Positions 8,521 through 10,542 of a DNA stretch of 24,415 nt are shown piece after piece. The notes under the pieces are model-generated. The model saw only the letters and a list, made by a program, of their open reading frames with translations, did not search any database and was not told where the DNA came from. Source of the DNA: a virus; IMG/VR virus record IMGVR_UViG_3300030106_002076, positions 1 to 24,415 of that record; one strand, given 5' to 3'. The translations under genes were made by a program, and so were the position numbers. The first letter of the stretch is position 1. Every line of letters begins with the position of its first letter.

Positions 8521-9951
8521 ATGAACTATAAATTTAAAACGAAGCCATACGCGCATCAATTAAAAGCGTTGGAAATTTCCTGGAATAAGGAAGTATTTGC
8601 TTATTTCATGGAAATGGGAACAGGTAAATCTAAAGTATTGATAGATAATATTTCTATGCTTTATGATAAAGGTAAAATAGATGGTGCTTTAATTGTAGCA
8701 CCTAAAGGTGTTGTTAAAAATTGGCATGAGCAAGAGATACCTACTCATATGGTTAACCACATAGAGAAAGTGTCTATTTTGTGGCAGGCTTTAATCAATA
8801 AAACACAACAACAAAAACTAGACTCACTTTTTAAAAATGAGGTAAAGTTTCATATATTAATTATGAATGTTGAAGCTTTTTCAACTAAAAAAGGTGTGGA
8901 TTTTGCTAAAAGATTTTTAAACTCTCATAATGCTATGATGGCTATAGATGAAAGTACAACTATTAAAAATCCTAGTGCTAAAAGAACCAAATCTATACTA
9001 GGTTTAGCTTCTATGGCAAAATATAGAAGAATATTGACAGGTTCGCCTGTGACAAAATCACCATTAGATTTGTATACTCAATGCCAGTTCCTTGATTCTT
9101 GGCTCTTGGGGCATTCTTCTTGGTACACGTTTAAAACTAGATATGCCATTATGAAAAACATGTCTTTTAATGGTCGAACTTTTCAAAAGGTGGTCGGATA
9201 CAAAAATCTAGGTGAATTATCAGATAAATTAAAACCTTTTTCACATAGAGTCTTAAAAGATGATTGTTTAGATCTACCTAAAAAGACTTTTATGAAAAGA
9301 ATTATTCAATTATCCCCAGATCAACATAAGGTTTATGCACAAATGAAGCAATTAGCCCTAGCTGAAATGAACGGTAAAATGATTACAACAGCTACTGCAT
9401 TAACTCAATTAATGAGACTACAACAAATTACTTGTGGTCACTTTAAAGCTGATGATGGCACTACTCAAGAAATACCCAATAATCGTACGGGTGAATTAAT
9501 AGACATACTACATGAAATAGAGGGAAAAGTAGTTATTTGGGCCCATTGGCAAAAAGATGTTACTTTAATTATTAAAGAACTTGTTAAAGAGTTTGATCAT
9601 GGGTGTTGTGTAGACTATTTTGGTTTAACACCACAAAGTGAAAGACAGGAAAATATTAGAAAATTTCAAGAAGATGAAAATGTTAGATTTTTTGTTGGAA
9701 CACCTCAAACGGGTGGATATGGTATTACCTTAACTGCAGCTAGTAATATGATTTATTTTTCTAATGGCTATGATTTAGAAAAAAGAAAACAATCGGAAGC
9801 GAGGATAGATAGAATAGGTCAAACTAAACCTATGACTTATATAGACATCCTTGCGGAAAATACTGTTGATGAAAGAATCGTCAAAGCTCTTCGTAAGAAA
9901 ATTAATATTGCCTCAGAAGTTATGGGTGAAGAATTAAAAGCATGGATTTAG
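8521..9951 (+). CDS. SNF2-like SF2 helicase/ATPase
   Basis: A 476-residue superfamily 2 protein of SNF2 type, the only rightward gene in the window. Motifs: an N-terminal Q-like region YAHQLKAL; Walker A MGTGKS (K36); Ia LIVAPKGVVKNW; motif II AIDESTTIKNPSAKR (D143, E144), with the DEx-x-IKN form typical of SNF2; motif III LTGSPVTKSPLDLYTQ; motif IV-like VVIWAHWQKDV; motif V GGYGITLTAASNMIY; motif VI QSEARIDRIGQTKPMTYIDI. Length and motifs match phage SNF2-like ATPases that translocate on duplex DNA and are thought to help replication, recombination or protein removal. No nuclease or DNA-binding appendage is visible. It starts about 18 nt after the predicted transcription start of the divergent promoter. 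The ribosome binding site is weak. Confidence 0.93.
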   Translation: MNYKFKTKPYAHQLKALEISWNKEVFAYFMEMGTGKSKVLIDNISMLYDKGKIDGALIVAPKGVVKNWHEQEIPTHMVNHIEKVSILWQALINKTQQQKLDSLFKNEVKFHILIMNVEAFSTKKGVDFAKRFLNSHNAMMAIDESTTIKNPSAKRTKSILGLASMAKYRRILTGSPVTKSPLDLYTQCQFLDSWLLGHSSWYTFKTRYAIMKNMSFNGRTFQKVVGYKNLGELSDKLKPFSHRVLKDDCLDLPKKTFMKRIIQLSPDQHKVYAQMKQLALAEMNGKMITTATALTQLMRLQQITCGHFKADDGTTQEIPNNRTGELIDILHEIEGKVVIWAHWQKDVTLIIKELVKEFDHGCCVDYFGLTPQSERQENIRKFQEDENVRFFVGTPQTGGYGITLTAASNMIYFSNGYDLEKRKQSEARIDRIGQTKPMTYIDILAENTVDERIVKALRKKINIASEVMGEELKAWI

Positions 9952-9963
9952 AATTTTATGAAT

Positions 9964-10088
9964 AGGGATCGGAAAGTCGTCCTTACGGGCATGTGGTGGT
10001 GTCCTGCTCTAACGAGCGAATTTGATTCGGTATTCCGAATCTCTAACTATTTCATTGACCGTTAAATCAATAACCACCACTTATCCCT
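9964..10088. ncRNA. Candidate structured RNA, cloverleaf-like, between convergent genes
   Basis: The 183-nt gap between the SNF2-like gene and hsp20 holds nested complementarity. The outer stem is AGGGAT (9964-9969) with ATCCCT (10083-10088). The inner closing stem is GTGGTGGT (9993-10000) with ACCACCAC (10073-10080), 8 bp perfect. Inside lie three hairpins: GCTC/GAGC (10006-10017, loop TAAC), GATTCGG/CCGAATC (10024-10041, loop TATT) and ATTGA/TCAAT (10054-10071, loop CCGTTAAA). TAACG of the first hairpin can kiss CGTTA of the third. It lacks the T-loop and anticodon geometry of a real tRNA. The strand is undetermined: it could be the 3' UTR of either convergent gene, or a DNA-level element. 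Confidence 0.5.
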
Positions 10089-10103
10089 TAAAATGTAGGA
10101 TAT

Positions 10104-10125
10104 ACGCGCGAGGCGTTGTAATTTT
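10104..10125 (+). terminator. Possible weak terminator of the SNF2-like gene
   Basis: ACGC (10104-10107) and GCGT (10113-10116) can form a 4-bp stem with a 5-nt loop, followed after TGTAA by a run of five T. The stem is short and the T-run is offset, so this is only a tentative rightward terminator. Confidence 0.25.
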
Positions 10126-10134
10126 TGAACCCTA

Positions 10135-10542
10135 TTATTTTATCGATATTTTTTTTGGCTTCTTGTTTTCTGGCGGATCATATTTTAAATCCACTTTCAA
10201 CATTCCATCTTCTAGTTTAGCTCCACTACATTCAACATACTCTGACAATTGAAGTTGTTTTTTAAATGCACGTTTAGCTATACCTCTATGGACAAAGTCT
10301 TCTTTATCATCAGAAGTTTTTCCTTCAATGGATAGGACTCCGTCTTGCACCTGGACATCAATGTCCGACTTCTTGTAGCCAGCCACCGCCATTTCCAATG
10401 TGTATTTATCTTCACCTGCTTTCTTTATATTATAATGCGGAAAGCCTGCGTTTATGTTGGGTAGTCGATGAATTCTATGGAAGAAATTCTCGAAACCAAT
10501 TGCGTTGTTTAGGAAATTATTTAAATTTATTAGATCAGTCAT
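10135..10542 (-). CDS. Small heat-shock protein Hsp20 (IbpA-like)
   Basis: A 135-residue alpha-crystallin-domain chaperone. The short N-terminal arm contains GFENFFHRIHR; the domain begins at FPHYNIKKAGEDKYTLEMAVAGY, continues with DIDVQVQDGVLSIEGK and the loop preceding the HRGIAKRAFKKQLQLSEYVE strands, and ends with GAKLEDGMLKVDLKYDPPE. A short C-terminal tail with KKISIK gives the I-x-I motif used for oligomer assembly. All hallmark segments are present, so it should be functional, holding unfolded proteins until refolding. Phage-encoded Hsp20 is known in marine phages and is thought to aid protein folding or virion assembly. A strong AAGGAGG site precedes ATG. It is last in the leftward virion operon, or has its own promoter. 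Confidence 0.95.
   Translation of the reverse strand: MTDLINLNNFLNNAIGFENFFHRIHRLPNINAGFPHYNIKKAGEDKYTLEMAVAGYKKSDIDVQVQDGVLSIEGKTSDDKEDFVHRGIAKRAFKKQLQLSEYVECSGAKLEDGMLKVDLKYDPPENKKPKKISIK

Follow-up and report, generated by a model that had tools for sequence, protein, structure and literature searches.

A conserved multi-pseudoknot RNA located 3′ of helicase genes in HTVC023P-like pelagiphages

The gap between the SF2 helicase and hsp20 genes

The window, that is, the whole stretch of 24,415 nt analysed here (IMG/VR record IMGVR_UViG_3300030106_002076), is a fragment of an HTVC023P/HTVC027P-like pelagiphage and encodes a DNA polymerase, an SF1 helicase (phrog_1967), a primase, an SF2 helicase (phrog_62), hsp20 and virion genes. 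The SF2 helicase gene (8521 to 9951, + strand; PHROG match, E 1e-118) lies on the strand opposite to the DNA polymerase, SF1 helicase and primase side, and its stop codon is about 10 nt 5′ of the RNA described below, a spacing that is repeated at 29 loci. The hsp20 open reading frame (10135 to 10542, − strand), convergent with the SF2 helicase, forms the 3′ border of the gap. An initial annotation had noticed here a gap of 183 nt holding a series of complementary segments; the gap was confirmed (9952 to 10134) and the listed segments are present in the window. Its description of the element as lying between convergent genes is right for the window but not in general, as most relatives have it between co-directional genes.

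To compare the folding energy with that of shuffled sequence, positions 9964 to 10088 were folded on both strands. The result showed that the + strand reaches −40.5 kcal/mol compared to −26.6 kcal/mol for dinucleotide shuffles (z −4.6, 0 of 200 shuffles as good) and that the − strand is also better than all 200 (z −4.35), so that the proposed excess of folding over dinucleotide shuffles was borne out on either strand. ARAGORN found no tRNA or tmRNA gene in the window element, and Rfam 15 (4227 families, including hammerhead, HDV, twister and riboswitches) gave no match to it with E up to 10, so that the suggested tRNA mimic does not hold. Rfam 15 searched with eight loci containing other members returned two weak matches, neither of them near the element. 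A sub-threshold match to CRISPR-DR27 at L100:3370-3394 (26.3 bits, gathering threshold 35, E 1.5) is likely due to chance. BLAST searches for the RNA in named phages gave short chance matches only, a literature search (subscription literature outside its scope) gave nothing relevant on such a motif, and the words noncoding and intergenic are absent from two papers on HTVC023P-type phages.

Other features of the gap were also considered. A weak A/T-flanked hairpin (GTAGGA..ACGCgcgaGGCGT.., 10092 to 10145, without strand assignment) is found in relatives both with and without the RNA; its folding energy is not beyond that of shuffles, and it may terminate both convergent transcripts. RNA-free SF2 sites (L012, L014 and L016–L018) have a small hairpin, TCCTAC-AAAAT-GTAGGA, straight after the helicase stop codon, and in RNA-bearing relatives the RNA stands in place of its left arm. 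Many viral contigs terminate within a few hundred bases past the SF2 helicase stop codon (window 9952 to 10134; L001–L080), and the gene 3′ of this site differs (hsp20, M15 peptidase, holin-like, terminase-like or hydroxylase). As a variable insertion site, this region may break assemblies. Stop-codon readthrough or a coding role of the RNA region was rejected: a second in-frame stop codon comes within a few codons at most loci, so there is no conserved extended frame, and the open reading frame at 10022 to 10252 was not counted as evidence of a gene. The idea that the start of the DUF3310 protein of the window (MSDVYKRQ) derives from a sequencing adapter was discarded, the adapter sequence being absent. 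A search for a promoter directly 5′ of the RNA gave nothing above chance.

Consensus fold and covariation

Comparison with about 100 distinct relatives in contigs of uncultivated viruses indicated a single RNA family, about 120 nt long, in which compensatory change is strong. In the window, the whole structured RNA spans 9961 to 10080 on the + strand (cmsearch with covariance model R1, 105.2 bits, E 8e-30, the window being among the 41 training rows). The conserved fold consists of three hairpins in series, G, C and D+H, crossed by two helices, A and B, all read from the + strand. Hairpin G is formed by CGGGCA (9986 to 9991) and TGTCCT (10000 to 10005), and five of its six pairs show two-sided change. 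Its loop holds the 5′ strand of helix B (GTGGTGG, 9993 to 9999), which pairs with the 3′ tail (CCACCAC, 10074 to 10080) in 98.8% of cells and covaries through UA/CG and AU/GC switches, although B is absent from the covariance model. Hairpin C (10006 to 10017, loop TAAC at 10010 to 10013) is paired in 98% of cells with two-sided change at three of four pairs; it is an optional module that is missing from diverged subclades. Hairpin D+H has a 5′ arm at 10021 to 10032 (TTTGATT + CGGTA) and a 3′ arm at 10057 to 10071 (GACCG, a TTA bulge at 10062 to 10064, and AATCAAT), its pairing being supported by covariation, strong in H, with D 99% paired. Its loop contains the 3′ strand of helix A (TTCCG-A-ATCTCT, 10033 to 10044), the partner of the 5′ tail (AGGGAT-CGGAA, 9964 to 9974). 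The conserved positions of the RNA are nearly all paired, and few unpaired nucleotides are strictly conserved. At some loci (L162, L176, L113 and L218) an optional extra hairpin lies between the helicase stop codon and the RNA, for example TTTACATAC-TAAC-GTATGTAAA, TTACACAACTGTGTAA or TTATAC..GTATAA.

This fold shares parts with the one proposed initially. The 8-bp stem GTGGTGGT/ACCACCAC and hairpin 1 (GCTC/GAGC) were supported by the relatives and correspond to helix B and hairpin C, respectively, and the contact of TAACG with CGTTA likewise found support. AGGGAT pairs with ATCTCT at 10039 to 10044 and not with the ATCCCT of the proposed outer 6-bp stem; this 3′ half falls beyond the conserved element, and several relatives do not have it. 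Pairing in 80% of cells of hairpin 2 (GATTCGG/CCGAATC) results from conserved letters that serve D, H and A, and only one of its seven pairs shows two-sided change, while hairpin 3 is paired in 37% of cells in relatives; neither belongs to the conserved fold. The cloverleaf was likewise not recovered, since a nested multiloop with one terminal closing stem is replaced by three serial hairpins with pseudoknots.

In the 41 sequences, 92.4% of cells pair and two-sided change affects 23 of the 38 pairs. Cells with two-sided change numbered 190, whereas shuffles gave 71.8 ± 9.1 and slid structures no more than 92; such counts are of sequences and not of independent events. In a tree-aware simulation with 70 sequences and an alignment made without modelling A or B, its tree being drawn from the same short alignment, G, B and H each came out at p 0.0025, the lowest value that 400 replicates allow; C gave 0.005, and D and the outer part of helix A both gave 0.057. 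The inner part of helix A was not significant because it is poorly aligned there. Duplexes of helix A taken from anchored ends in the 70 relatives averaged −11.9 kcal/mol compared to −8.1 kcal/mol with swapped strands. As an independent test, a pattern made of helix A only, for which we estimate less than one chance match, found 88 stretches in the viral collection, and all 37 distinct newly fetched ones also carry B, G and D+H. Taken together, the compensatory changes exceed both the shuffled and the tree-aware expectation, indicating from alignment that the element is a conserved structured RNA; the covariation excludes a chance structure. With the poorly aligned portion of helix A (Ab) left aside, about 237 G.U cells were counted against 15 A.C cells, implying selection on the + strand RNA and not on a DNA element or on an RNA of the other strand.

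The TAAC loop of hairpin C is complementary to GTTA in the bulge between H and D. Loop and TTA bulge are jointly present or absent in 92 of 94 aligned members (64 with both, 28 with neither); of the other two, one combines TAGC with TTA, which can still pair by way of a G.U, and the second (L336:10680-10799) keeps TTA although its loop is shortened. This second case is the sole clear break of loop–bulge pairing. The discovery patterns fix some letters, so that the apparent conservation of TAAC and GTTAAA is biased. As most TAAC members were found by patterns requiring both parts, the SF1-helicase scan is the cleanest sample, with about 14 members having both TAAC and TTA and 11 having neither. 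Loss of loop and bulge may represent few events, since the members lacking both fall in related subclades. The UAAC/UUA contact could be made by direct pairing or by docking, and the UAAC could alternatively take a GNRA-like loop fold.

Relatives and alternative genomic sites

Within 80 loci carrying relatives of the SF2 helicase, L001, L002, L003, L007, L050 and L051 have the element directly after the stop codon, and L004, L005 and L006, whose helicases are very similar and whose 3′ flank is the same, have about 135 nt missing at the RNA site. DNA patterns derived from RNA-bearing relatives found many further members in viral contigs. The covariance model R1, built from the 41 sequences with nested hairpins only, gave one match per locus in 122 loci. 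Some of these are overlapping pieces or nearly identical, the first 79 sequences including 70 distinct ones, and diverged members scoring down to about 45 bits were located after SF1 helicase genes. Since the pattern scan of viral contigs gives its members as at least those listed, the family is larger than listed. The RNA is thus common to well over a hundred contigs, all of uncultivated viruses and many short, and is absent from the complete genomes of HTVC027P, HTVC023P and 023Pt_psg01. A cellular copy was rejected: the sole match in genome_contigs is a contig of a Thermoplasmatales metagenome-assembled genome with phage gene order. This contig (L205:1-8000, LSSG01000033.1), binned as Thermoplasmatales, carries hsp20, SF2 helicase, primase, SF1 helicase, the RNA and the start of DUF3310, and is probably a misbinned phage contig.

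The position was tallied at 121 loci. About 90 have the RNA after the SF1 helicase gene, 29 after the SF2 helicase gene and one (L093) at a hydroxylase gene, and one tallied contig is cut too near the RNA for a site to be assigned. In L093 the RNA overlaps the end of the hydroxylase-like gene by 36 nt. Elsewhere it is always in sense orientation, 9 to 28 nt 3′ of a stop codon, whereas the next gene and the distance to it differ between loci. At the SF1 site the RNA begins 10 to 28 nt after the stop codon and mostly lies 5′ of DUF3310 and the DNA polymerase; at the SF2 site it begins 9 to 10 nt after it, with hsp20, M15 peptidase, holin-like or small genes convergent opposite. The two sites are on opposite genome strands. 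SF1 loci without the RNA have a helicase stop codon that overlaps (ATGA) or adjoins the following start codon.

Whole-contig searches found one real RNA match per genome. In 13 genomes with the RNA at the SF2 site the SF1 site is RNA-free, as in the window, where two open reading frames overlap by 4 nt at that site, and conversely the SF2 site is RNA-free in the SF1-site genomes G021, G022, G023, G026 and G027. The RNA-bearing genomes readable at both sites thus have it at exactly one, implying a single copy at alternative sites, on opposite strands and in sense each time.

Possible roles of the RNA

The fold, strand, position and single copy at alternative sites are, by comparison of relatives, established, whereas its transcription, stability, action in trans and any binding partner are what we infer. 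The initial suggestion that this is a novel phage ncRNA or a 3′-UTR element holds up, the tests of covariation, conservation in relatives and folding against shuffles all being positive. Our leading interpretation, held tentatively and at a little under an even chance, is a single-copy, trans-acting structured ncRNA that is carried in a helicase transcript and works by its shape. Such an RNA would come from the + strand and form the 3′ end of the early helicase message. The 5′ tail enters the D+H loop (helix A) and the 3′ tail the G loop (helix B), two pseudoknots that lock the hairpins, with the UAAC/UUA loop–bulge contact bracing hairpin C against D+H. As both ends are tied into the fold, trimming of the helicase message should leave the RNA intact, and it would then serve as a ligand or decoy of a protein or ribonucleoprotein and not by antisense pairing. 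Since the conserved positions are nearly all paired, recognition by shape is a better fit than antisense action. The move to the opposite strand kept the sense orientation, and the new site has no downstream gene that could be controlled, which is easier to reconcile with an RNA product than with a cis switch. Against action in trans, the tight and constant spacing to the upstream stop codon also suits a cis 3′-end element, no promoter-like site stands out directly 5′, and genomes of the same group exist without the RNA. The alternative sites could also reflect one historical relocation and not function.

The main rival, which we regard as rather unlikely, is a cis-acting 3′-end element of the helicase mRNA that would block 3′-to-5′ exonucleases or insulate the cistron and so give a longer-lived message. 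The 3′ tail tied into the fold and the constant sense position 9 to 28 nt past the stop codon, while downstream distance and gene vary, are consistent with this, as is the overlap of the helicase stop codon with the next start codon (ATGA) in relatives lacking the RNA. However, the spacing could follow from how tightly phage genes are packed, the unrelated SF1 and SF2 helicases carry the RNA alternatively and never both where both ends are read, and in L093 it follows another gene. Control of the downstream DUF3310–polymerase genes by a riboswitch or translational element is improbable: the fold at the SF1 site often ends 17 to 24 nt 5′ of the following start codon, and a Shine–Dalgarno-like AAAGGAG lies in between, but inserted small genes separate the RNA from DUF3310, and 29 of 121 loci (the SF2 site, including the window) keep the fold with no downstream sense gene. 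The consistent position before a regulated sense gene expected of a riboswitch or 5′ leader is therefore lacking at these 29 loci, which excludes a cis switch acting downstream as the general role.

The scarcity of strictly conserved unpaired positions lowers the chances of a ligand pocket and of a catalytic core alike. It bears equally on a self-cleaving ribozyme that would cut the early transcript or free the RNA's own end, which we also consider improbable, there being no Rfam ribozyme match, even though the size, the several pseudoknots, the intercistronic position and the phage setting recall known self-cleaving RNAs. HDV-like and other pseudoknotted self-cleaving ribozymes, theta included, are likewise small, compact and found in phage transcripts; in the present RNA, by contrast, one hairpin loop takes the 3′ tail and another the 5′ tail. 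The strand order of HDV-like ribozymes differs from that of this fold. Theta ribozymes are known to occur in phages (PMC10879173). A function at the DNA level, such as an origin, a packaging site (both raised in the initial annotation) or a recombination site, is very improbable, as is a chance structure given the covariation: the RNA lies within or beside the replication gene module and many contigs end nearby, but a G.U count far above A.C is not expected of a DNA element and points to selection on the + strand RNA.

Among known systems, xrRNA elements of eukaryotic RNA viruses block 5′-to-3′ enzymes. They are likewise pseudoknotted with ends tied in and have a 3′ untranslated position, as this RNA has at one of its two sites, but sequence and topology are different, Rfam gives no match, and exonuclease resistance is putative here. 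The RNA motifs of Pelagibacter and marine metagenomes likewise came from comparative genomics of marine genomes and several are pseudoknotted, but the motifs examined there lead ribosomal or methionine genes (PMC2704228, PMC2864571), and the words phage and helicase do not occur in the Pelagibacter paper. The present RNA has no match in Rfam 15.

The RNA family and its fold are new, and the function could be of a known kind. It is conceivable, though on the unlikely side, that the RNA represents a new class of functional RNA in marine phages, with a catalytic role or that of a nuclease-proof ribonucleoprotein ligand, carried as a one-copy module that moves between early helicase genes. Its consensus can be used for probing, structure work and metatranscriptome searches. 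HTVC023P-type pelagiphages are described as widespread viruses of SAR11 (PMC9599517). A conserved multi-pseudoknot RNA of their uncultivated relatives, one that neither Rfam nor three complete relatives contain, gives phage–host biology a concrete unknown that can be tested.
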